This document shows, piece after piece, positions 21,816 to 35,997 of a stretch of 36,483 nucleotides of DNA. The notes beneath the pieces are model-generated. The model was not told the origin of the DNA, did no database searches, and saw only the letters and a program-made list of their open reading frames with translations. Numbering within the stretch: position 1 is the first letter of the stretch; each line of letters opens with the position of its first letter. The position numbers and the translations under genes are program-made. This stretch comes from an uncultured Candidatus Saccharibacteria bacterium (lineage in GTDB: Bacteria; Patescibacteriota; Saccharimonadia; Saccharimonadales; Saccharimonadaceae), in assembly GCA_947165975.1 (NCBI GenBank), contig CAMVCL010000010.1, positions 1 through 36,483 of the forward strand, read 5' to 3'.

Positions 21816-22220
21816 ATGAGTTATAGTACTAAGCAAAAAAGAAGCATCTCGAATTATATCAAAAAGTTAAACAAAGATTTTACCGCTAAAGATATTTACG
21901 AATATTTTAAAGGAGAGATTGGATTAACTACAATTTATAGATTCGTAGAAACCCTAGAAAAAGATGGCACAATTCTTCGTATTACTACAGATGAAAATAC
22001 CACAAGGTATCAGTATATCAAACCATGCAATCACGCCGACCACTTCTATTTAAAATGCGAAGAGTGTGGGGACCTAAAACACGTAGATTGTAAAAAGATT
22101 CAAGGCCTCACAACGCATATTTCAGAAGAACACCACTTCATTCCGACGAACACAAATCTGATCATCAATGGTCTTTGCGCAAAATGTGCGAGAAAGGAAA
22201 ACCATGAAAAAGAACACTAA
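21816..22220 (+). CDS. zur: Fur-family metalloregulator, probable Zur
   Basis: The protein has 134 residues. An N-terminal winged helix contains the recognition helix region GLTTIYRFVETLEKDG (36-51). The C-terminal metal/dimer domain has HADHFYLKCEECG (Cys81, Cys84) and CAKC (121-124), the structural zinc site of Fur-family proteins, plus several His residues. It starts at an ATG with AAGGAA upstream. The operator in its own promoter and the downstream ZnuABC-like genes argue for zinc-responsive repression. Fur or Mn-type specificity cannot be excluded by sequence alone. Its last 17 bases overlap the solute-binding protein gene. Confidence 0.88.
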   Translation: MSYSTKQKRSISNYIKKLNKDFTAKDIYEYFKGEIGLTTIYRFVETLEKDGTILRITTDENTTRYQYIKPCNHADHFYLKCEECGDLKHVDCKKIQGLTTHISEEHHFIPTNTNLIINGLCAKCARKENHEKEH

Positions 22221-23154
22221 AATATTACTCGCCCTTGCCATAATATTATTTTCTGGAATAATCGCAGTCATTAACCTCAGCAATAATAAAAACTCTCAAA
22301 AGATATCAATCGTTACAACAAATTTCCCAGCCTATGATTTCGCCCGCGCCGTAGCCGGCGATAAAGCAGACATTAAGATATTGATAAAACCCGGCACTGA
22401 AACACACGATTTCGAACCAACCCCAAACGACATTATTGATATCAAAAACAGTGATCTATTTATTTATACCGGTGGCGAATCAGATGAATGGATAAAAGGT
22501 ATCCTAGATAACATCGACACGAACAAAACCAAATTTTTCAAAATGATGGATGCCGTAAATGTCGCAGAAGAAGAGACTGTAGACGGTATGGAAGAAGAAC
22601 AAAAACACCATAATGATGAAGAAATAGAATACGATGAGCATGTATGGACTAGTATCAAAAATGCCACAAAGATCACCAACCGTATTAAAGACGAACTAAT
22701 TATAATCTTTCCAAAAGACAAACAAGTTTTTGAAGAAAACACTCAAAAATACACAAGTAGGTTAACAAAACTTGACGCAGAATTTCAGGACGTCGTGAAC
22801 AGGGGGAGCAGAAAGACTATCATCTTCGGCGATCGCTTCCCTCTTCGCTATTTTGTAGATGATTATGGACTAGATTATTTTGCGGCCTTTCCAGGCTGTT
22901 CTGAGCAAACTGAAGCTAGCAGCAATACTATTGCATTCCTCGTAGAAAAAATCAAGCAAGAAAACATCCCGGTCATTTTCAAAATTGAAATGAGCAGCGG
23001 AGATATCGCCGAAACTATTGCTAATGAAACTAACGCCAAAGTTTTAACATTCAATACTGCTCACAATATTTCAGCCAATGATTTTAAAAATGGGCGTACC
23101 TACGTAGACATTATGGAAGAAAACCTAAAAGCCCTTGAGGAGGCGCTTAGATAA
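22204..23154 (+). CDS. znuA: ZnuA-like metal-binding protein of an ABC importer
   Basis: The protein has 316 residues in the cluster A-1 (ZnuA/PsaA) family that binds Zn or Mn outside the membrane. An N-terminal hydrophobic helix (about 7-25) has no lipobox cysteine, so it is probably an uncleaved anchor or plain signal. Metal ligands are His68 in GTETHDFEP and His146 in YDEHVWTS, preceded by an acidic/His loop (121-146, with KHHNDEE). The usual third His position reads FGDRFPLRYFVDDYG, with Asp-Arg instead, and FPGCSEQTEAS follows, a variant known in a subset of Gram-positive relatives. The start at 22204 has AAAGGAAAA upstream and overlaps zur. Confidence 0.92.
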   Translation: MKKNTKILLALAIILFSGIIAVINLSNNKNSQKISIVTTNFPAYDFARAVAGDKADIKILIKPGTETHDFEPTPNDIIDIKNSDLFIYTGGESDEWIKGILDNIDTNKTKFFKMMDAVNVAEEETVDGMEEEQKHHNDEEIEYDEHVWTSIKNATKITNRIKDELIIIFPKDKQVFEENTQKYTSRLTKLDAEFQDVVNRGSRKTIIFGDRFPLRYFVDDYGLDYFAAFPGCSEQTEASSNTIAFLVEKIKQENIPVIFKIEMSSGDIAETIANETNAKVLTFNTAHNISANDFKNGRTYVDIMEENLKALEEALR

Positions 23155-23825
23155 TGAACTTAATCTCACTAAACAAAATCAAACTCGGTTACAACAATAA
23201 CATCGTAATTAATAACCTAAGTCTTAATATAGAAGAACAAGATTTTATTTGCATTGTTGGCCCCAACGGCTCCGGCAAAACCACCTTAATCCATGGGATT
23301 TTGGGGCTGCTTCCCCTCAAATCTGGTAACATCAAATTTAATATAGAAAAAACCCAAATTGGATATATGCCACAAGAAACCGCCGTAGACTCCAATTTCC
23401 CAGCTTCAGTTTTCGAGATAATACTTTCTGGCTCACTAAATAATCATCAAAATTTTTACAGTGAAAAAACCAAAGAGCACGGAGAAGAAATACTAAAACT
23501 ACTTGGTATAAAAAACCTAAAAAATTTGAGCTTTTCAGAATTATCCGGCGGCCAACGTCAAAAGGTCTTATTAGCACGTGCACTCATGGCAACACAAAAA
23601 CTGTTAATCCTAGACGAACCTTCCAACAATCTAGATCAAAAATCAAAACAAGATTTATATAAAGTTATCCGTAATCTAAATAAAAAACAAAAAATCACCA
23701 TTATTATGATTACTCACGATTTGGATCATGGCAACTTAATCGGTGACAAAATTCTATCACTTCATGACAAAGATTATTTCTTTGGTACCACCGAAGAGTA
23801 TATCAGAAAGGTACACCATGAATAA
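23154..23825 (+). CDS. znuC: ABC transporter ATPase of the Zn/Mn importer
   Basis: The protein has 223 residues. It contains Walker A GPNGSGKT (36-43), Q-loop near YMPQE, signature LSGGQ (130-134), Walker B LLILDEP and the H-loop His188 (MITHDLD). It powers uptake through the partner permease. The ATG directly abuts the stop of the binding-protein gene with a one-base overlap, and the end overlaps the permease by 8 bases, so the three are translationally coupled. Confidence 0.95.
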   Translation: MNLISLNKIKLGYNNNIVINNLSLNIEEQDFICIVGPNGSGKTTLIHGILGLLPLKSGNIKFNIEKTQIGYMPQETAVDSNFPASVFEIILSGSLNNHQNFYSEKTKEHGEEILKLLGIKNLKNLSFSELSGGQRQKVLLARALMATQKLLILDEPSNNLDQKSKQDLYKVIRNLNKKQKITIIMITHDLDHGNLIGDKILSLHDKDYFFGTTEEYIRKVHHE

Positions 23826-24630
23826 TTTAATTGAAATGTTTTCGTATTCATTTATGATTCGTGCACTTATTGCCGGCGTTATGATATCATTATCCGCAGC
23901 ACTAGTCGGCACACCCCTAGTCCTAAAAAGAAACTCCATGCTCGGGGATGGACTCTCTCATGTCGCATTTGGTGCTTTTGCACTAGCAATAGCACTTAAT
24001 CTCACTCCAATCTGGATAGCAATTCCAATAGTTATCATAGCGTCGTTTTTCATCCTTAAATTAAATAGTAACTCAAAAATCCATGGCGATTCTGCTATTG
24101 CCGTATTATCCGCCAGCGCACTCGCAATCGGTACGTTTATCGTCTCACTAACTGGAGCCAACATTGATATTAATAGTTATCTTTTTGGCAGCATTCTGTC
24201 TATTGGTAACAATGAAGTATTTCTTTCGCTCATACTCCTAACTATTATTATTACAATTTATATCATATTTCATAATAAGATATTCGCACTCACTTTCGAC
24301 GAAAAATTTGCACGCGCCATCGGAATCAACACCAAAGTTCTTAACGCAGTATTTGCCATTCTCTGCTCCGTACTCATTGTACTCGGTATGCGTTTAGTCG
24401 GCGCGCTATTAATTTCAAGTCTAATTATTTTTCCAACATTATCAGCTCAAACAATCTTCAAAAGCTTTAAAAGTGTGACTATTGCTGGAGCAATATTATC
24501 AATCATTGCCTTTACGATCGGGTTAATCGCATCATATCTACTCAGTACGCCAACTGGCGCCACAATAGTCATCGTAAATTTGTTTACGTTACTCGTCCTC
24601 AAACTTCTTAGCTGTCTAATCAAAGAATAA
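23818..24630 (+). CDS. znuB: ABC-3 family permease of the Zn/Mn importer
   Basis: The protein has 271 residues and about eight membrane helices. It includes the family block NSMLGDGLSHVAFGAFALA near the N-terminus and GMRLVGALLISSLIIFPTLSAQ toward the end, both typical of ABC-3 (ZnuB/MntB) permeases. The ATG at 23818 sits inside the ATPase 3' end. It is the last gene of the zur-znuACB operon and ends only 13 bases from the convergent acyl-ligase gene, with no strong terminator visible between them. Confidence 0.94.
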   Translation: MNNLIEMFSYSFMIRALIAGVMISLSAALVGTPLVLKRNSMLGDGLSHVAFGAFALAIALNLTPIWIAIPIVIIASFFILKLNSNSKIHGDSAIAVLSASALAIGTFIVSLTGANIDINSYLFGSILSIGNNEVFLSLILLTIIITIYIIFHNKIFALTFDEKFARAIGINTKVLNAVFAILCSVLIVLGMRLVGALLISSLIIFPTLSAQTIFKSFKSVTIAGAILSIIAFTIGLIASYLLSTPTGATIVIVNLFTLLVLKLLSCLIKE

Positions 24631-24643
24631 GGAATCTTGTACT

Positions 24644-26050
24644 TTATTCCATCAACTTTTCATTTTTCCTCTTAAGTGATAACTCATAGCCAATAATCCG
24701 ATCTTTTTTGGCACATTTTTCATTAAAAGACTCGACAAGATCATCTAAATTGGTTTTATTGGTATCCATCAAGAAAAATTCAGCATATAATCTATCATTT
24801 CGAAGCGAAAACCTCACATCATTTACATTGCTATTCATTTTCTTTATTTTTTTTAACAAATCATCTGGGTAAATACTTTCGCCATTACTGCCAATCAAGA
24901 CTTTCTTTTTGCGTCCAGTTACAAACAACTTACCATTTTTTATGTGCCCAAGATCACCAGTCTTAAAATATCCGTCATTGGTAAGATAATCTATACCTTT
25001 TACAGTATATCCCAAAAACACACAGTTGCCTTTTACACAAATTTCGCCATTACCTTCTTTATCTGTATCAATAATTTTCACATCCAAATCTTCATAAATC
25101 GTACCCACATCCTCATCATCTGTATCACCAGGATAGCTCACAGCAAATGATGAAGCCGTTTCCGACAAAGCATAAGCATTCAAAATTTCCAGACCACATT
25201 TTTTATAAATCTGCTTCAGCTCCTTACTAATTGGTGCTCCGCCTGACACCAAAAACCTAATTCTATCACCAAAAGCTTTACTCACGTCATTATGATAGAC
25301 CTCAGCAATACGCTTATATATTAGCGGCACTGCGCCAAGAATAGTCGGCCTAACTTCTAAAAGTTCCTCGCCAATTTTCGCTATATCACTACAAAGATAA
25401 ATACTTAGTCCTGAAACTAACGAATAATAAAAAATATAAAGATTAGCATATGTGTGATGCAGGGGCAAGAATAAATACATAATGTCAGACATCACAAACT
25501 CTGCTCGTCGTTTCAAATATGGCCAACCATAATACATATTTTTAAAAGATAGCTTCACACCTTTTGGTTTTGAAGTCGTTCCACCAGTAAAGACAATTTT
25601 TGTACATTCATCCGGGTTATATTTTTTATAATCATTTCTGGCCTCATTTAATTCAGGAATAATTTCGTCAATATTAATTTTCAAAACATTATCTTTTATT
25701 ATATCGATTTTGTCAGCCTGATCATTTCCAAATAGCACTGCTTTCACACCTAAGCTTTCAACCATGCCAGCCAAATCTTCTGTACTCACTGAAGCAGCAG
25801 TATTTACACAAACACCCGTATAAACAGTAATAGCAATATCAGCAATCATTAAATTAGTTGAGTTTTTGCCAATCAACATTATTCGCTGATTCATCAAGCC
25901 ATCGTCAATTAACTTCGTCGCGAACGCCCGCGCTTTAAACACAAAATCATTAAATTTTATCGCGGAATATTTTCCATCACGTTTTTCAAAAATATATTCT
26001 TTATTATTGAATTTTTTCAAATCTTCTTCTAACAGTTTCTGTACATTCAT
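24644..26050 (-). CDS. AMP-forming acyl-CoA/acid ligase (ANL superfamily), 2
   Basis: The protein has 468 residues and activates a carboxylic acid as the acyl-AMP. Motifs are the P-loop-like FTGGTTSKPKG (154-164), LPLHHTYANLYIFYY, YALSETASSFAV (A5), YFKTGDLGHIKNGKLFVTGRKKKVLIGSNGESIYP (A7-A8, cited as two adjoining blocks: FKTGDLG and GRKKKVLIGSNGESIYP) and a short C-terminal domain ending in KRKNEKLME. The HHTYAN and GRKKK blocks resemble long-chain fatty acyl-CoA synthetases. The C-terminal subdomain is shorter than in most. The ATG has AAGGAG upstream. It is the last gene of the seven-gene minus-strand operon; substrate unknown. Confidence 0.9.
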   Translation of the reverse strand: MNVQKLLEEDLKKFNNKEYIFEKRDGKYSAIKFNDFVFKARAFATKLIDDGLMNQRIMLIGKNSTNLMIADIAITVYTGVCVNTAASVSTEDLAGMVESLGVKAVLFGNDQADKIDIIKDNVLKINIDEIIPELNEARNDYKKYNPDECTKIVFTGGTTSKPKGVKLSFKNMYYGWPYLKRRAEFVMSDIMYLFLPLHHTYANLYIFYYSLVSGLSIYLCSDIAKIGEELLEVRPTILGAVPLIYKRIAEVYHNDVSKAFGDRIRFLVSGGAPISKELKQIYKKCGLEILNAYALSETASSFAVSYPGDTDDEDVGTIYEDLDVKIIDTDKEGNGEICVKGNCVFLGYTVKGIDYLTNDGYFKTGDLGHIKNGKLFVTGRKKKVLIGSNGESIYPDDLLKKIKKMNSNVNDVRFSLRNDRLYAEFFLMDTNKTNLDDLVESFNEKCAKKDRIIGYELSLKRKNEKLME

Positions 26051-26058
26051 ACATCTCC

Positions 26059-27471
26059 TTAAACTAATGACAATAATTTTTTATAATCTGTTTTAGTATA
26101 ATGTCTTACGTCATGTGGCAACTTACTAATATATTTATATTTTACCTTGAATCCATATCTTTCAAATAACGCACTTTCAATTTTTTTTGCATGCTTACGT
26201 TCAGTACCAAATAAATAAATTTTGTTGTTCTTTTGCAAAACCGCACACTTCCTGTAGTTCGGAAATTTCACGGACAAAAATTGCTCAATCTCGTGACTAT
26301 AATATTTTTTCCCATTAAAAACAATATAGTAATTAAACTTCCCACGATAATATAACACGCCATTCTCAATATATCCTTTATCATTTGTATCATACCAATC
26401 ACCATCACGTATTCCATATTCAGATCTTTCATTAATAAAACCTTTAATCAGTGCATTACAACTGACTAAAATCGATTCGTCACCTGCAATTTTAATACTC
26501 ACGCAATCAAATGGTTTACCTAACGTAGACCGATAATTGTTACGAAGCTCACGAATATAATCAGGAAGAACGACCCATGCCATAATATTACACTCTGTCG
26601 CGCCATACACCATAATGTTTTTTGAACTAGCAAACTTCTTCTGAATCATTTCTGCCTCTTGCAAATTAATTGAAGCACCACCAATATAAAGTAGCTTCAA
26701 CTTCGGAAAAATATTATCCGCCTTAAGCCCAAAAACTGGCGAAGTAATAATAATCGAAATCGGTAAATTTTTAAATGCCTGCAAATGATCATTAATTTTC
26801 TTAGCCGAAGCGTTTAAATTAATCTGCGGTAGCACCGCTGTATCACCACGCGCCAGAATCGCAAAAATATAAATAAACGCGGTAGACATAATAACATTAC
26901 TTTCATCTATTGGCAAATTCTTGTCCATTAGCTCTAGCTGATTAAATAAATCGAGGTGCGAACGAACAATTATTTTTGGAACCCCAGTTGAGCCAGTAGT
27001 CGTCGTAAGAAGAGCCGGTACATCATCGGCTATTTTTGGTAGTCTACTAAGTTTAACTTCATCAAACTTAATCCTATCCAAATTCAATACTTCAAGCCCA
27101 TGTCGAATATTTTTAAACAGGAGATGCAAATATTTTGTTCTATTTGAAACCAATACATATTTTGGCTTAAATCTTTCGAATAGTATATCAAATGTTTCCT
27201 GGCGCGCATGAATATCCAAAAACATCACTTGGACACCAAGCTTAAAGGCAGCAATCATAAAAACCGTCAATTCATACGAAACTGTAGCAAACAGAAAAAC
27301 CGAATCACCAGTCTTAACACCTGAAGTAATTAGATAATTAATGCACGAATCAATATCAGTTTTTAGCTCGCCATATGTTCGCTTCTGAAGGGTTTTATCA
27401 TAAAAATAAATCGCATCTTTTTCAATATTGTTTAAACAAGCATCATCAAAAATATCCGCAATTTTACTCAC
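26059..27471 (-). CDS. AMP-forming acyl ligase (ANL superfamily), 1
   Basis: The protein has 470 residues. It shows ATP-loop TTTTGSTGVPK (156-166), YGATECNIMAW (A5), DGDWYDTNDKGYI (A7), LYYRGKFNYYIVFNGKKYYSHEIE (hinge and C-domain entry) and RHYTKTDYKKLL near the C-terminus, with the candidate catalytic lysine at about 460. The RH-x-x-K-x-D ending and compact size recall OleC-like or dedicated acyl ligases more than fatty acyl-CoA synthetases; this is a resemblance, not an assignment. It starts with GTG overlapping the stop of the BtaA-like gene and is followed 8 bases later by a second ligase that is clearly divergent from it, so the pair probably acts on different acids or in sequence. Confidence 0.88.
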   Translation of the reverse strand: MSKIADIFDDACLNNIEKDAIYFYDKTLQKRTYGELKTDIDSCINYLITSGVKTGDSVFLFATVSYELTVFMIAAFKLGVQVMFLDIHARQETFDILFERFKPKYVLVSNRTKYLHLLFKNIRHGLEVLNLDRIKFDEVKLSRLPKIADDVPALLTTTTGSTGVPKIIVRSHLDLFNQLELMDKNLPIDESNVIMSTAFIYIFAILARGDTAVLPQINLNASAKKINDHLQAFKNLPISIIITSPVFGLKADNIFPKLKLLYIGGASINLQEAEMIQKKFASSKNIMVYGATECNIMAWVVLPDYIRELRNNYRSTLGKPFDCVSIKIAGDESILVSCNALIKGFINERSEYGIRDGDWYDTNDKGYIENGVLYYRGKFNYYIVFNGKKYYSHEIEQFLSVKFPNYRKCAVLQKNNKIYLFGTERKHAKKIESALFERYGFKVKYKYISKLPHDVRHYTKTDYKKLLSLV

Positions 27472-28547
27472 TTTTTAACCTCATATATTAAAAGGTCGCG
27501 ATAAAACCACGCCTTATTTTGTTCAAATAATTTTTGCGATAAGTTTTCATCCAGTACAAAAGTATCATTACGAATATAACGTCTATTTTGCATATTCCAA
27601 TATAGTATCTTGCTACCATTTTTTACTCGCTTTTTTAGAGTTTCAATATTTTGCCCAAACTCTAAATCACTCATATATTCAAAAATATCCGACAAATAGA
27701 AGAAATCATATTTCAAATCCGGTAAATCACCCAGATTACCATGGACCAATTCCAATTTATCAAGATTAGCTCGAATTAGCTTATAGTATTCTGGTTGAAG
27801 ATACAACGGAAAAGCGTGCGTAAAATTATTATTAGCGATGTAATCAAGATATGGATTCTCCGAATTTTTAGTATGAAACAGTCCGTATTCAACTTTCTTT
27901 TTCAAATCATAACTATTATTTTTAACATCATTTTTATCGACATGTTCAAAAAAAGCTTTGTCACGACCGTACTTTGCCATAGATTTGTATCCAAAAAAAA
28001 TTTTAAAAAGTATTCGAAAACGACGTGTATCAATTTTTCGCACATAAAATTCTTTCTGAGTTTTTAAATTATCCATTTTCGAAAATTCACTATAATTATT
28101 TTTACTAGAAGTAGTTGGAATAATATATTTACGGAACAATTGAAAATAATGCTCAAATTTTCCAGTATGTACAATGCCTTTCTTGATAAAATCAATGTGC
28201 TCATCAAAATACCGCTGTGCATCCTTAGACATATTGTCGCAGACCTGCTTGTATAGTCCTAGTCGCTCTCCGTCTGTCACGCCCAACAAACATTTGGTCT
28301 CATCAAGTGTCAAATTAGCGATCGCAGCAATCTTTAGCTCAGTACAATAGAGCTGTGTTTTATTTACATCAAAAGCATAGATTTTTTTAGGTGATTTTAT
28401 TAGCATCGCTAAAACATTATCGCCACCCGAGCAAACTACAGCGCCTATTTGCCCCGTTTTAATACTTATCCCATCGAGAGCAATGTCAGTATCTTCCCAA
28501 ACATTCGAATACCGAATTATATTAAAAACTTTGTCATTTTTTATCAC
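27468..28547 (-). CDS. BtaA-like (DUF3419) S-adenosylmethionine aminocarboxypropyl transferase
   Basis: The protein has 359 residues. The order of blocks fits the DUF3419/BtaA family: YSNVWEDTDIAL at the start, the SAM-binding VVCSGGDNVLAMLI (SGGDN 40-44), YAFDVNKTQLYCTELKIAAI (Asp60, then the LKLAAI-like helix), GKFEHYFQLFRKYIIP, LELVHGNLGDLP and DFFYLSDIFEYM. BtaA moves the 3-amino-3-carboxypropyl group of SAM to diacylglycerol in betaine-lipid synthesis (family knowledge). The acceptor here may differ, and the downstream methyltransferase BtaB is not present. GTG start with GGAG upstream; it is coupled to the following ligase. Such a gene is unexpected in a reduced CPR genome. Confidence 0.85.
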   Translation of the reverse strand: MIKNDKVFNIIRYSNVWEDTDIALDGISIKTGQIGAVVCSGGDNVLAMLIKSPKKIYAFDVNKTQLYCTELKIAAIANLTLDETKCLLGVTDGERLGLYKQVCDNMSKDAQRYFDEHIDFIKKGIVHTGKFEHYFQLFRKYIIPTTSSKNNYSEFSKMDNLKTQKEFYVRKIDTRRFRILFKIFFGYKSMAKYGRDKAFFEHVDKNDVKNNSYDLKKKVEYGLFHTKNSENPYLDYIANNNFTHAFPLYLQPEYYKLIRANLDKLELVHGNLGDLPDLKYDFFYLSDIFEYMSDLEFGQNIETLKKRVKNGSKILYWNMQNRRYIRNDTFVLDENLSQKLFEQNKAWFYRDLLIYEVKK

Positions 28548-28551
28548 TTTT

Positions 28552-31068
28552 TTACTCCAATATTTCTATAGTACCATTAACACCATCTACTCGTACAGTG
28601 GCTCCGTCTGGGACTTTATCTGTCAAATTCTTTACGCTTACCACCAGCGTCATCCCCATTTCACGCGCAATCACTGCCGAATGCGAAAGCATGCTACCGT
28701 GCTCAATAATAATCGCTTTCGCCATCGGGAATAATGTGGTCCATCCTGGATCAGTACGCTTCGCCATCAAAATACGATTCTTCACATCTGCGTTATTTGG
28801 ATTGGTGACATATTTTACTTTTCCTATCACGACCTTACCACCACCAGCCGTGCCAGTCAAAACCTTCTCACTATTTGGCTTAATCTTTGCAAAGATCGGC
28901 AAAGCATTTTCAGGAACAATGTCTCCATAGAAATAAATTCGGTCGTACACCTCTTTTTTCGCATTTGCGTAATAAAGAGCTTTTCGCGTCTTTATCAATT
29001 CGTGCATATCGATTTTTTTGTTTTTCGAAATATAATCAAAAATTTCGGTTTTTTCCAAAAAGAAAATGTCACGATAATTGTCAATTAGCCCCTCCTTCTC
29101 AAAGTTACGTCCAATACTAAGGAAAATATTCCTCACCACAGAATAAATATACGTTCGTCTAAGCCTTAATGATTCACGATTTTTAATAAAATACTTCGAA
29201 AGTTTAAGCAATTCTCTAATTTTTATTCTAGCCACTGGCGATAAACCTTTATATAGTTCTTTCTCATCATCTATCGAATGTTTCTTGTGTTTCACTTTTG
29301 GTAGCTCCGGCATTTCTAAATATTCAGAAATCATTTCATAGAGCAGATTTGGATTTTGCTGCATAGTCACAGTTTCAAGCTTTAGTTCATCCATTGTACG
29401 TGGACCATATTTATAAATATAATCTTGGAGCATTGCATCAAGTTCTGAATATTTCTTTACATTTTTCCAGTTTTTTTTATGTCTAAACAAATCTGACCAT
29501 TCTACATTCTTCTTTATCTTTTCAACTATTTCAATCAAATCCGTAGTCTGTTTAACGCTTTCCACGCCACCTTCGTTCGCAAGTACTCTGCTAAGTAGTT
29601 GCTCAAAATTATCTGGTTTATATTTTTTTAATAGCTCCGTCAGTTTGCCAAACACTACCATCGTACCCATATCGTTCGAAATCGGCGTCACAAAATCATC
29701 TAAAATATTCTTTTCAAGATCACTATAAATCTCAACCAATTCTTTGTTAGAATATTCATCAAGCGACTTATTATAATACGCACCCACAACTTCATCAAAT
29801 CGTTTAATAAATTCCTTGCTGAGTTTTTTCATTCTCGTCATTCTACTTAAAAAACTCGCATATATTTTTATTCGACGCGTATTCTCCTGCGCCGCTGTTT
29901 CACGTAGAGGCGTCTTCACCCCCATCATAGTTTCCATGTATTGTTTATTCTTATTATAGCCGGGATATAAGGCTGTCATTTTATACCAACCATTAAGTCG
30001 GTAATAGATTTTGTTCTCAAAAAAGAATAACATGTGATCAAGGTCATATGCAATTGATTCAATATCTTCTTCTCCAATGTAAAAGCTTCGCAGAGTTTGA
30101 CGGTAAATCTTACCGTAAATTTCCCTTGCAAATGAATAAGTTAAATCCGAAGTTACGCCAGCATAACTTTCTATAATATTAGAGTTGTCCAAGATTGTCC
30201 GTGGCTGGTCTTTATCAACATATGAATAATTCGTAATTAAACGACATTGCAATACATAAACCTCATCATCCTTTACACAATATTCAATATCCACACCGCG
30301 ACGCGGCTTATAGCACCTTTCAATTTTTAATGCTATCTCATTTAGCTTCAAAACGGTTGCGTCACTAAGTTTTATCGACCCTTTTTCATTGCGTTCAATA
30401 ATTTCACCCAAACAGTCCACCGAATAATCAGTACTATCATTCTTGCCGGATACTAAATTCTCACCAATCCCTTTCACTACGCTGATCACGGTTTCATCAG
30501 TGTTATTTGTAACTGGATTAGTCGTAAACATTACACCAGAAAAGTCTGCATTAACCATTTCTTGAACAATGACCGCAACACCAATTCCTGAATTAATTAT
30601 TTTATTGTCAGCACGATATTTCATAATACGTTTAGAAAATGCAGAAATATAACATTTTTTTACCGCTTTCAACAACTCATCCACATCGTTTCTTATGTTA
30701 AGATACGATTCAAGCATCCCAGCAAAACAATATTTCTCGCCATCTTCATCACTAGCACTAGAACGTACGGCAAAATTCGTTTCAGGTGAAAAACATTCAC
30801 CAATTATCTCCGCTAGCTCTTCACGAATACTACCATCAAATTCCGACGTCTCAATAAGGGCAATAATCTTTGCATCATTCTCCGGTTTATAGTGTTCTAA
30901 TAGCTTTGCATATTTTTCATAATTATTACCCAAAAATTTTTCGAAACATTTTCTCGGCAAACACACCCATCTTGGTACGTTAAATCCACTCTTCTCTAAG
31001 TGACGCAAATTATACGCCTTACCACCCACTTCATTTAAAGACATTTTATCATCAAGATCATAAATCAT
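28552..31068 (-). CDS. PEP synthase/rifampicin-phosphotransferase-like dikinase
   Basis: The protein has 838 residues with three parts. The N-terminal ATP-grasp-like domain has VGGKAYNLRHLEKSGFNVP, FAVRSSASDEDGEKYCFAGM, DFSGVMFTTNPVT and GVDIEYCVKDDEVYVLQCR. A long helical middle (about 300-730) is unlike PEP synthase and is reminiscent of the substrate domain of rifampicin phosphotransferases. The C-terminal swivelling phosphohistidine domain has TDPGWTTLFPMAKAIIIEHGS followed by LSHSAVIAREMG (His796). Known relatives split ATP to AMP and phosphate and phosphorylate pyruvate or an antibiotic. The TIM-barrel PEP domain is absent, so the phosphate acceptor is probably another small molecule. 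The ATG overlaps the UbiA-like stop (ATGA). Confidence 0.88.
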   Translation of the reverse strand: MIYDLDDKMSLNEVGGKAYNLRHLEKSGFNVPRWVCLPRKCFEKFLGNNYEKYAKLLEHYKPENDAKIIALIETSEFDGSIREELAEIIGECFSPETNFAVRSSASDEDGEKYCFAGMLESYLNIRNDVDELLKAVKKCYISAFSKRIMKYRADNKIINSGIGVAVIVQEMVNADFSGVMFTTNPVTNNTDETVISVVKGIGENLVSGKNDSTDYSVDCLGEIIERNEKGSIKLSDATVLKLNEIALKIERCYKPRRGVDIEYCVKDDEVYVLQCRLITNYSYVDKDQPRTILDNSNIIESYAGVTSDLTYSFAREIYGKIYRQTLRSFYIGEEDIESIAYDLDHMLFFFENKIYYRLNGWYKMTALYPGYNKNKQYMETMMGVKTPLRETAAQENTRRIKIYASFLSRMTRMKKLSKEFIKRFDEVVGAYYNKSLDEYSNKELVEIYSDLEKNILDDFVTPISNDMGTMVVFGKLTELLKKYKPDNFEQLLSRVLANEGGVESVKQTTDLIEIVEKIKKNVEWSDLFRHKKNWKNVKKYSELDAMLQDYIYKYGPRTMDELKLETVTMQQNPNLLYEMISEYLEMPELPKVKHKKHSIDDEKELYKGLSPVARIKIRELLKLSKYFIKNRESLRLRRTYIYSVVRNIFLSIGRNFEKEGLIDNYRDIFFLEKTEIFDYISKNKKIDMHELIKTRKALYYANAKKEVYDRIYFYGDIVPENALPIFAKIKPNSEKVLTGTAGGGKVVIGKVKYVTNPNNADVKNRILMAKRTDPGWTTLFPMAKAIIIEHGSMLSHSAVIAREMGMTLVVSVKNLTDKVPDGATVRVDGVNGTIEILE

Positions 31069-31646
31069 TTACGCAAACTCCTTTTATAAATTGCATAAAT
31101 AGTCGAAAGCACCAAACACACGCCACAAGTCACAGCTAATTTCCAGTCCACCATATAATCATAAATCCAAACAAAATATAAAATCATAAGAGAGCTCATC
31201 AAAATCTCTAAGTACTCACAAATAAATTGAAACGAAAGCATATATAAGACAAACAGAATTGATACTAAACCTTTCCATTGAAAACAAGCGATGTTGAAAA
31301 TTACAAAAGCCGCATTAAATACAATCGCCATTACAATATTATCTTTGTGATAAAACATTTCTTTATTGTGCTCAATGTCATATTCCCAGTCTAAACAATT
31401 ATCAATATACCGTAACGAATAAAGTTGCAATAAAGTAAAAATCGCAAACTGCCAAAAACTAAATCCGAAAACAAAATAAGCTACCGCACCGGACACTAAA
31501 GCCACAAAAGGATACGAATATGTCTTTTTGTTAATGAAAAATTTACAGATTTTTTTAAATGATAACGGTGATGGCCCTAGGGCTTTCTTTTTTAGCTCCG
31601 TTACATTCGTCCTAATCATTCTTTTGCTATTACTTTGCAACTTCAT
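31065..31646 (-). CDS. Short membrane protein with UbiA-like Asp-rich motif
   Basis: The protein has 193 residues, a basic N-terminal ~40 residues and about five hydrophobic helices. After the second helix lies RYIDNCLDWEYDIEHNK (79-95), which resembles the NDxxDxxxD metal/diphosphate motif of UbiA prenyltransferases. The protein is about one third shorter than UbiA and lacks a clear second Asp motif, so it may be a half-size or degenerate relative, or chance similarity. It has AAGGAG upstream and lies directly after the GNAT-like gene. If real, it would act on a polyprenyl or isoprenoid diphosphate in the membrane. Confidence 0.6.
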   Translation of the reverse strand: MKLQSNSKRMIRTNVTELKKKALGPSPLSFKKICKFFINKKTYSYPFVALVSGAVAYFVFGFSFWQFAIFTLLQLYSLRYIDNCLDWEYDIEHNKEMFYHKDNIVMAIVFNAAFVIFNIACFQWKGLVSILFVLYMLSFQFICEYLEILMSSLMILYFVWIYDYMVDWKLAVTCGVCLVLSTIYAIYKRSLRK

Positions 31647-32525
31647 TTAAAGCTCCTTTCTAAATAACGCATAACGTTTTTCGTCAGATTCATACTGTTT
31701 GTCAAAACGTTTAAAATCTGGTTTTTGTTCGCACTGAAAATGATAAATCATATCATTAAAGCCCATCTGTTCAACAAATCCAGAACCATAATATAATAGT
31801 GCTGCAAATATTTGTTGGTTTTGATATTCTTGTTTCACGGCACTAGTTTTTGAAATAAAATTATCTGCAAACGGGTTTCTATATCCAAGCGCAAAACCAA
31901 TCGCCTGGCCATATTTATATGCAACAAATAGCTGCGCATCAATTTTCCTTATCCAAGACAAATAAAACCTTTCAAAATATTCAAACGGCAAATCGTAATA
32001 AAGCCACGCACCTTTAAATGCATCACAAGAAATCTCATAAATCTCGCGCGCTTTCAATAATGCCTCATTGCCCTCAAAGTGCTTAAAATCAAACCCTTGT
32101 GCCTGTTTTTTTTCATAGCTCTTTTTGCCAAGCCCATAAAGAGGATTATGAATCTTTACCCGCGCGCTACGATAAGTCAAAAACTTACTATAACCCAACT
32201 TCTCCAAATAGTCCACATAGTATCTTGGGTTGTTGCAATCTGGAAACAATTTCATATCATAACGATCTAAAGCTAAACGATAAGAAAACCATGTACAATA
32301 ATTAATTGGGCCAATAATATCATTATAACCCATCTCACGCGCTCGTTTTTCAACACGCTCAAATAGCTTCTTTACCGTCTCATAATCTTCTGGCAAGTCA
32401 ATAAACCCAAAAAGACATGGGTGATCAGCTATTTTAGAGTTAACAATCAAATAGGCCTTCGCTTTATCCTCCTCAAACAATTCCGAATAATCAGCTAATT
32501 CTAATATTGCTAATTCCTCATTCAT
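31647..32525 (-). CDS. GNAT-fold acyltransferase-like protein
   Basis: The protein has 292 residues from the ATG at 32525, which overlaps the kinase stop (ATGA) and has GAGG upstream. An N-terminal part with ARE.GYNDIIGPINYCTWFSYRL and a CNNPRYYVDYLEKLGYSKF block, followed by a C-terminal GNAT-like half (AQLFVAYKYGQAIGFALGYRNPF, then a helix with YQNQQIFAALLYYGSGFVEQMG), matches a group of double-domain acyl-CoA N-acyltransferase-like proteins. The classic R/Q-x-x-G-x-G/A loop is weak. It probably transfers an acyl or aminoacyl group to an amine; the substrate is unknown. Confidence 0.72.
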   Translation of the reverse strand: MNEELAILELADYSELFEEDKAKAYLIVNSKIADHPCLFGFIDLPEDYETVKKLFERVEKRAREMGYNDIIGPINYCTWFSYRLALDRYDMKLFPDCNNPRYYVDYLEKLGYSKFLTYRSARVKIHNPLYGLGKKSYEKKQAQGFDFKHFEGNEALLKAREIYEISCDAFKGAWLYYDLPFEYFERFYLSWIRKIDAQLFVAYKYGQAIGFALGYRNPFADNFISKTSAVKQEYQNQQIFAALLYYGSGFVEQMGFNDMIYHFQCEQKPDFKRFDKQYESDEKRYALFRKEL

Positions 32526-33625
32526 AAACAAGCCCTCAAAACTTTACGTACATTTTTCTCGCATCCACTGGCTAGCTTGTTGTGATTTTTTTTACTATAC
32601 GAACGAAAAATAGCTAAACGATTAACTACATATTCCAATGCATTGAAACGCATTCGTCTCGTGAATTCCTCATCACTAATTCCCTTTTTAGTTTTATTTA
32701 CAAGCTGCTTACGATAGTAACCAATTACTTTTCGGATTTGTTCAAAAGTACAATTATCATCAGCTGTCGTAAATAATAATTCAACTAAATCATGCTCGGG
32801 ATTTTGGAAACAAGCCAACTCCCAATCATAAATAATTATTCGTTCATCAATAGAAATATTACGAGGCGTCAAGTCATTATGCGTCAAAGTTTGACAATCC
32901 ATCACTTTCGCATATTCTTCATCTATATGTTCGATAAAACCATTAATAACTTCTACTAATTCTTTTCCGTACAATTTTACATTTTCGTCATAGTAATAAT
33001 TAAACAACGCACGCAAAGCGCCACGAGAACTCCGATAATCATTTGGTGTATAATAATTTAACCTCATCTCTCGTATTATTCTTCGATTATTGTAGTATTT
33101 AGCATGAAAATCCGTTATCAAGTCGATAATCTTATACAAATCGCCAAAAATAACCTCACGACCTCGCGAGAATTCAACCATTGCCAGTGATACTCTCTGT
33201 CCATTAAATGACTCGCACGCCCCAAGGAATTGCGGTAAAGCGCCACTTAAAGAACCGTCAACCTTCTCATAAAACAATTTTTCACGTTTTCTCCCACTAT
33301 TAAAACCAAAAATACGATGTCGCATAATTATTTTTAGAAAAATATCAAAACTCGGAGAAAGTAAAGTTGCCCCGAACGGTACGACCAAACTATTTTTATG
33401 TTTTATCACGATATGATGATTCTCGCCATTAGTATCAATTACTTTATAGAACATTACCGCATGTTTCCCAGAAAACTTACTGGAAATAGTATCCACTTCA
33501 TCAGACGAAAACTTCTGAAAGTTTTTATACTTTGGAAAAATCGAACAAATTAACTTTTGATCAGTCATTATTAATTTAAACCAGTATTTTTGATATTGCT
33601 TTCCCTTAATTATACCATGTGTCAT
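32522..33625 (-). CDS. APH/choline-kinase-fold phosphotransferase
   Basis: The protein has about 367 residues. The C-terminal half has the Brenner-type catalytic loop LTHNDLTPRNISID (His249-Asp251) and the Mg-binding IIYDWELACF (Asp267), as in aminoglycoside phosphotransferases, choline/ethanolamine kinases and homoserine kinases. The N-terminal lobe contains HHIVIKH as a possible ATP-lysine strand. The substrate may be a hydroxyl of a sugar, amino alcohol or lipid head group. The start is unsure: the ATG at 33625 is used here, 33661 is possible, and an extended -10 at 33609-33617 would instead favour the ATG at 33568. It is the first gene of the seven-gene operon. Confidence 0.82.
   Translation of the reverse strand: MTHGIIKGKQYQKYWFKLIMTDQKLICSIFPKYKNFQKFSSDEVDTISSKFSGKHAVMFYKVIDTNGENHHIVIKHKNSLVVPFGATLLSPSFDIFLKIIMRHRIFGFNSGRKREKLFYEKVDGSLSGALPQFLGACESFNGQRVSLAMVEFSRGREVIFGDLYKIIDLITDFHAKYYNNRRIIREMRLNYYTPNDYRSSRGALRALFNYYYDENVKLYGKELVEVINGFIEHIDEEYAKVMDCQTLTHNDLTPRNISIDERIIIYDWELACFQNPEHDLVELLFTTADDNCTFEQIRKVIGYYRKQLVNKTKKGISDEEFTRRMRFNALEYVVNRLAIFRSYSKKNHNKLASGCEKNVRKVLRACL
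33609..33617 (-). promoter_or_regulatory. Extended -10 promoter of the seven-gene operon
   Basis: TGG-TATAAT on the minus strand would start transcription near 33602. If used, the kinase must begin at the ATG at 33568, because the upstream ATGs lie before the transcript start. Alternatively the operon starts farther upstream, near 33650. Confidence 0.45.
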
Positions 33626-33646
33626 AACTATGCCCCCATACCTTTG

Positions 33647-33655
33647 TGCTATAAT
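33647..33655 (+). promoter_or_regulatory. Extended -10 promoter of the DUF5684-like gene
   Basis: TGC-TATAAT with a predicted start near 33662, giving a 20-base leader with ATAAGGA before the ATG at 33682. It is divergent from the kinase operon. Confidence 0.6.
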
Positions 33656-33681
33656 AAACATAAGTAATATAAGGAATTATT

Positions 33682-35505: not shown

Positions 35506-35997
35506 ATGAAAAAAGAGCTAAAAATCTCTATACCAATCCTTATCGTCATAATCATTTCTGTTATTGTTACAACGATCATAATGAATAATAAAGAACCAGC
35601 AATAGACCCAAATCTCACACAAGAAGCCAGCCAGCAAAACGATAACGAGGAAAACCCCATGAATGAAATATTTGTTAATCTCAATGGACAAAAACTCAAA
35701 ATTAATCTAGAAGACAATTCAACTACATCAGCTTTGATTAAACTATTACCGTTAAGTCTTTCAATGAACGACCTAAACGATAATGAAAAATACGTCTATC
35801 TAGACGAATCATTACCAACCAACACTTTTAGTCCAAAACATATAGAATCAGGCGATGTTATGCTCTATGGCGATAATTGCCTCGTAATCTTCTATAAATC
35901 ATTCAGCACAAACTACGACTACACCAAAATTGGCCAAATCGATAACCTACCAAATTTAGGCGATGGCGAAGTCTCTATAAGTATTAGTACGGAATAA
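35506..35997 (+). CDS. Membrane-anchored cyclophilin-like protein
   Basis: The protein has 163 residues. An N-terminal anchor helix (about 7-27) precedes a linker and a beta-rich domain. EIFVNLNGQKLKINLEDNST, ALIKLLPLSLSMNDLNDNEKY, YLDESLPTN, GDVMLYGDNCLVIFYKSF and YTKIGQIDNL together match the cyclophilin-like domain often called PF18050, frequent in gut Firmicutes and Bacteroidetes. In this family the peptidyl-prolyl isomerase residues are not conserved and the ligand is unknown. The ATG follows the hydrolase stop without a gap (TAA-ATG), so the genes are coupled. Confidence 0.88.
   Translation: MKKELKISIPILIVIIISVIVTTIIMNNKEPAIDPNLTQEASQQNDNEENPMNEIFVNLNGQKLKINLEDNSTTSALIKLLPLSLSMNDLNDNEKYVYLDESLPTNTFSPKHIESGDVMLYGDNCLVIFYKSFSTNYDYTKIGQIDNLPNLGDGEVSISISTE

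Follow-up and report, generated by a model that had tools for sequence, protein, structure and literature searches.

What a BtaA-like protein might produce in a small-genome Saccharibacterium is the question raised by one gene of the DNA stretch analysed here (the window, 36,483 nucleotides in full). BtaA uses S-adenosylmethionine (SAM) to convert diacylglycerol into DGHS, which BtaB then methylates to DGTS (PMC3972451). An earlier note, made from the sequence alone, had described the gene as a BtaA-type transferase whose BtaB partner was missing, and had listed a new acceptor among the possible explanations. Here, the family, fold and SAM-site features of the protein were computed, together with its placement in a separate clade, the structure of its operon, the conservation of the corresponding gene cassette and the catalytic residues of a neighbouring RPH-type kinase. 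We consider it reasonably probable that this protein, from a DUF3419 subfamily paralogous to BtaA, uses SAM to transfer a 3-amino-3-carboxypropyl (acp) group, and does so as one step in a conserved pathway to an amino-acid-headed and probably lipidic or membrane-bound product.

The DUF3419 protein and its host genome

The gene encodes 359 amino acids from a GTG start without internal stop; read on the plus strand, the same interval is interrupted by many stops. Its product matches the Pfam family DUF3419 (PF11899) over residues 5-330, covering positions 3-350 of the 385 in the profile and scoring 159.6 bits against a curated cut-off of 28.2, which upholds the membership of the DUF3419/BtaA superfamily proposed earlier. 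The blocks named in that proposal, SGGDN (residues 40-44), FDVNKTQ (59-65) and LKIAAI (71-76), are all present in this minus-strand frame. The SAM-binding residues on which it depended are likewise in place, SGGDN and D60 both being conserved in the alignments, and structure prediction, one of the checks suggested in the earlier note, returned an AlphaFold2 model with a class I SAM-methyltransferase fold (pLDDT 94.3, pTM 0.92). PDB searches gave no useful match with the sequence and a weak one to MJ0883 (0.011) with its profile. The fold search with the model singled out no acp transferase, the matches being general SAM methyltransferases and 6ulo, an uncharacterised Leptospira protein. NCBIfam holds no model for the cassette-type DUF3419 family (see below) and none for true BtaA.

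DUF3419 occurs as a single copy in the genome assembly (882 kb, 31 contigs, 99.5% complete). This assembly contains no 16S; judged by a single marker, RuvB, the genome is Saccharibacteria-like, a possibility raised in the earlier note, with 74% identity to the Saccharibacteria MAG L006 and the same-family genome G159 and 52-59% to five genomes from other groups. The gene is rare in this lineage, in line with its earlier description as unusual: DUF3419 exceeds the cut-off in 1 of 380 genomes of the phylum, and clear matches were found in 2 of 198 genomes of the same family, a third match being weak and 81 residues long. This rarity, together with relatives that are mostly gut Bacillota, suggests a lateral transfer that was not recent (best identity 50%). 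In G159, PEPS (Table 1) and DUF3419 genes lie at a contig end and the ligases are not next door; an insertion-site comparison showed that the genes flanking the cassette vary within the genus. The window genome also holds CDP-alcohol phosphotransferases and one PlsC-type acyltransferase, and is therefore not wholly devoid of glycerolipid enzymes.

Inspection by eye further revealed similar small membrane-anchored, possibly cyclophilin-like proteins near the cassette at 35506-35997 of the window and at L006:2761-3282, which possibly mark a common cargo or integration region in two different Saccharibacteria.

Relationship to BtaA

BtaA references with an adjoining methyltransferase gene were taken from Rhizobium leguminosarum (L078) and Sinorhizobium meliloti (L079); in the latter record BtaA consists of two overlapping ORFs, and it was left out of the tree. 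DUF3419 genes of Shinella (L080) and of a Sphingomonadales genome (L074) group with the R. leguminosarum BtaA. A profile-profile comparison of 45 cassette-type sequences with L078, L080 and L074 reached 99.9% probability over 350 columns, so that cassette-type DUF3419 and BtaA are homologous end to end. In a maximum-likelihood tree of 71 sequences, true BtaA is a distinct clade (100/100) set off by a branch of 3.9 changes per column. The window protein, which has a long branch (0.99), falls inside the cassette family, where it belongs to a 14-member gut clade (99/90, or 99/99 once the Treponema row is included). The motif LLDAQDWM of the Rhizobium, Shinella and Sphingomonadales BtaA is replaced by NLSDIFEYM in the cassette clade (YLSDIFEYM in the window), S286 and I288-M292 being invariant across the 45 cassette-type sequences, and the N-terminal extension of the same BtaA proteins is absent from the window protein. 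The Sphingomonadales genome (G561) contains one DUF3419 gene of each type, BtaA and cassette (C9:30209-31318 and C73:15470-16528).

Cassette-type DUF3419 and BtaA are paralogs, and the window protein lies outside BtaA proper. In the phylogeny it stands outside the clade of BtaB-linked BtaA. The label "BtaA-type" thus stands for the family or superfamily and fails for BtaA proper, given the separate clade, the changed motif, the lack of the extension and the seven-gene operon. The missing BtaB was correctly recognised, as the ORFs and Pfam matches of the operon include no BtaB-like methyltransferase. A role as a BtaA making DGHS is unsupported, and a non-BtaA acceptor, one of the alternatives raised earlier, fits best.

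A third DUF3419 type, distinct from both BtaA and the cassette type, was observed on the Rhizobium plasmid pMK-2 (L073:1817-8155), together with KAS III, a reductase, an MBL-fold hydrolase and a CoF synthetase, and possibly represents a further undescribed pathway.

A tightly coupled operon

The DUF3419 gene is the fifth of seven coupled genes (Table 1), a setting that the earlier note had overlooked, which form a minus-strand operon at 24644-33661, in the order KIN, GNAT, half-UbiA, PEPS, DUF3419, LIG1 and LIG2, with spacings of -10, 0, -4, 4, -4 and 8 bases. All seven frames are open. The GC content of the operon (34.0%) differs modestly from that of the flanks (38.7%), and promoter and terminator scans performed no better than shuffles. 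Genes convergent with the operon (21816-24630) were recognised by eye as encoding a Fur/Zur-like regulator and then the binding protein, ATPase and permease of a zinc/manganese ABC transporter.

Table 1. Genes of the window operon, with the evidence for each assignment.
Feature	Coordinates	Strand	Evidence
KIN, soluble APH/choline-kinase-fold kinase, first gene	32522..33661	-	EcKL 1.5e-6, APH 2e-6
GNAT, tandem (double) GCN5-fold acyl/aminoacyl transferase	31647..32531	-	Acetyltransf_1 2.1e-4, model pLDDT 93.0
Half-size UbiA-like membrane protein, 193 aa	31065..31646	-	Iterative profile search reaching full UbiA of relatives
PEPS, RPH-type His-swivel kinase (ATP-grasp, acceptor domain, C-terminal phospho-His domain)	28552..31068	-	PPDK_N 5.2e-54, PEP-utilizers 6.8e-20
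DUF3419/BtaA-like putative SAM-dependent 3-amino-3-carboxypropyl transferase	27468..28547	-	PF11899 1.7e-46, model, phylogeny, alignments
LIG1, AMP-forming ligase (adenylate-forming enzyme)	26059..27471	-	AMP-binding 1.8e-29
LIG2, second, divergent AMP-forming ligase, last gene	24644..26050	-	AMP-binding 2.7e-46

KIN keeps the catalytic motifs HNDLTPRN and DWE, has homologs at the same position in 9 gut loci, and probably adds phosphate to a small or lipid alcohol. The best PDB match of GNAT, a protein present in nearly all complete relatives, is the tandem GNAT 7q3a (Z 18.8), with further matches to MshD, L-PGS/MprF and FemX; its tandem fold is likened to that of MAB_4324, MshD, MprF and FemX. 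A supposed link between GNAT and bacterial ceramide synthase was not confirmed. The half-UbiA keeps the first Asp-rich motif, RxxDxxxDxxxD, with R79, D82, D86 and D90 invariant, and is without the second conserved half; alone it has no Pfam match, the full-length version in relatives being PF01040. Of the two ligases, LIG1 has a P-loop (TTTTGSTG) and a C-terminal RHxxKxxY lysine that are conserved across the cassette family, and LIG2, which follows LIG1 in gut-type loci, has an atypical P-loop and C-terminus.

PEPS aligns with the RPH structures 5fbs and 5hv1 (1.6e-54), and its K17, R102, R631, E632 and H796 correspond to K22, R117, R666, E667 and H825 of RPH. These catalytic residues are invariant in 56 aligned relatives (H796 in 55, with one gap) and are those required to phosphorylate the histidine and to pass the phosphate on to a hydroxyl. 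The domain order is that of RPH (PMC4844700), not that of the pyruvate-using PEP synthase. In a Treponema locus (L053:7189-10002), the half-UbiA region and PEPS are apparently fused in a single ORF, suggesting that the two proteins may act together.

Distribution and architecture of the cassette

A pattern search of about 85,000 genomes, which was not exhaustive, yielded 64 homologous loci. A PEPS gene lies beside or near DUF3419 in 60 of them; among the remaining four, L022, L033 and L059 end at contig ends and L016 lacks PEPS. The core of UbiA, PEPS, DUF3419, DolK, GNAT and LIG recurs in three gene orders and more than 10 phyla. In the open-access literature searched (titles and abstracts for DUF3419 papers), no description of such a cassette was found.

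Based on their genetic organization, the cassettes can be divided into two architectures. The gut type, with the order KIN-GNAT-ATP-PPase-halfUbiA-PEPS-DUF3419-LIG1-LIG2, is carried by Oscillospiraceae/Ruminococcus, Bacilli and one Saccharibacteria MAG. The wide type comprises a full UbiA, PEPS, DUF3419, a DolK-like protein, GNAT and LIG, and occurs in Gemmatimonadota, Bacteroidota/Rhodothermota, Verrucomicrobiota, Melainabacteria, Clostridia, Acidobacteriota, Pseudomonadota and others, including a Roseinatronobacter plasmid. The window cassette is of the gut type without the ATP-PPase, which was not found elsewhere in the window genome; no wide-type cassette has this gene either.

No cassette of the set combines KIN with DolK: the gut clade, including the window, has KIN and lacks DolK, the other cassettes show the reverse, and L006 and L053 are without both. 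This mutual exclusion suggests that one alcohol kinase was exchanged for the other. CTP_transf_1, a family with cytidylyltransferases as well as dolichol/phytol kinases among its members, was matched by 3 of 11 DolK-like proteins (best 2.9e-7); the motif pattern of the DolK-like proteins would make them kinases. HMG-CoA reductase homologs with strong PF00368 matches accompany the wide type and occur in 20 of the 64 loci (e.g. L045:5021-6304 and L062:5136-6416). HMG-CoA synthase was detected in none of the 13 genomes tested, most of them drafts, with positive controls, nor in the nine tested genomes that hold reductase homologs in their cassettes, so that the reductase homologs probably reduce another acyl thioester.

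Convergent to the wide-type cassette of a gut Melainabacteria locus (L028:14611-18081) is an LplT/Aas-like protein combining an MFS transporter, an acyltransferase and an AMP-binding region, which we take to be of the lysophospholipid uptake and acylation type; an AMP-binding gene occupies the equivalent convergent place in L024, L027, L035, L038, L039 and L049. Together, the full UbiA, the DolK-like protein and the LplT/Aas-like protein of L028 hint at a membrane lipid context.

A possible pathway and its alternatives

The best reading of the pathway, for which we infer the acp transfer, its acceptor, the order of steps and the lipid nature of the product, is one leading to an acylated, phosphorylated and amino-acid-headed product. 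The DUF3419 enzyme would take the acp (homoseryl) group of SAM and attach it to a hydroxyl of a probably hydrophobic acceptor, LIG1 and LIG2 would convert carboxylates to adenylates, and the tandem GNAT would acylate or aminoacylate an amine. Hydroxyls would be phosphorylated by KIN and by the RPH-type His-swivel kinase, and the half-UbiA may act at the membrane, holding or transferring a substrate that is a hydrophobic diphosphate. For the wide type, a speculative order using every enzyme would begin with acp transfer to a lipid alcohol, continue with LIG activating the carboxylate thus gained and the HMG-CoA reductase homolog reducing it to an alcohol, and proceed through phosphorylation by DolK and PEPS and joining by UbiA to N-acylation by GNAT.

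That the operon instead makes a soluble natural product (metallophore-, signal- or nucleoside-like), with acp placed on a small amine or hydroxyl, appears unlikely. AMP-ligases, GNATs and APH-like and RPH-type kinases are common in natural-product clusters, and a soluble KIN with a possibly NRPS-like LIG1 would likewise suit a small metabolite that is not a lipid. Nicotianamine-type metallophores are also made with acp transferases. According to a review, BtaA does not appear homologous to these enzymes (PMC10491745). Such a product is nevertheless at odds with the UbiA-like and DolK-like membrane proteins of the core, with an operon that revealed neither a transporter nor a carrier protein nor NRPS/PKS, and with a deep, near-fixed six-gene core unlike that of a typical strain-specific metabolite. 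There is a small probability that the protein is a plain BtaA with unrelated neighbours, producing DGHS that stays unmethylated without BtaB. It belongs to the same family with full-length homology, and the CDP-alcohol phosphotransferases and PlsC-type acyltransferase mean that glycerolipids may be present, but the separation from BtaB-linked BtaA, the change from LLDAQDWM to NLSDIFEYM, the retention of both types in one genome and the conservation of the neighbours across phyla all argue otherwise.

The chance that the subfamily has changed its chemistry, to methylation or SAM cyclisation instead of acp transfer, seems slim. The class I SAM fold is common to methyltransferases, the motif differs from that of BtaA, and DUF3419 members could catalyse methyl transfer or another SAM reaction; the SAM-side motifs and length, however, are as in BtaA. 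A decaying, functionless acquisition in this Saccharibacterium is very improbable. The cassette is rare in the phylum and LIG2 has an atypical P-loop; the loss of the ATP-PPase, the half-size UbiA and the long branch indicate that the window product may differ or that the pathway may be decaying. Yet seven open, tightly coupled frames persist, the catalytic residues of KIN and PEPS and the invariants of DUF3419 are kept, and wide-type cassettes all do without an ATP-PPase anyway.

An acp transferase in an amino-acid-headed pathway is thus the reading that we retain for the window protein. With distinctly more reserve, we regard as possible a broader proposal: a widespread and undescribed six- to eight-gene pathway in more than 10 phyla, with gut Bacillota, Melainabacteria and a handful of Saccharibacteria among its carriers, making a new class of membrane lipid with a homoserine-type (acp) group by means of UbiA, an HMG-CoA reductase put to new use and an RPH-type kinase acting on lipids. 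If this were true, the labels "DUF3419", "phosphoenolpyruvate synthase", "UbiA" and "hypothetical" would hide a conserved lipid or metabolite pathway in gut, marine and soil bacteria, RPH-type kinases would gain a biosynthetic role, and an HMG-CoA reductase homolog acting outside the mevalonate pathway would be suggested. A small-genome Saccharibacterium would then possess what looks like a complete envelope or metabolite pathway, probably lateral in origin.

Comparison with known systems

Several components of the cassette have counterparts in known systems. Phytol/polyprenol salvage (VTE5-type kinase, VTE6 and UbiA prenyltransferase) likewise pairs a CTP_transf_1 protein with UbiA, as does the wide type; the cassette differs by its added DUF3419, RPH-type kinase, GNAT and ligase, and the window further by its soluble kinase and half UbiA. 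PEPS resembles RPH in its domain order, with a C-terminal His-swivel domain, and in five catalytic residues, and differs in its diverged acceptor domain and its operonic association with UbiA and DUF3419. The double GCN5 fold of the window GNAT is common to tandem GNATs, MprF (L-PGS) and FemX, but identity to these proteins is low (about 10-13%). With BtaA, the window protein shares the DUF3419 family, full-length homology and the SAM-side motifs; it differs by its separate clade, the motif at LLDAQDWM, the lack of an N-terminal extension and of BtaB, and its multi-enzyme operon. The pathway, if confirmed, would be new, and the enzyme itself is a variant within the known BtaA superfamily.
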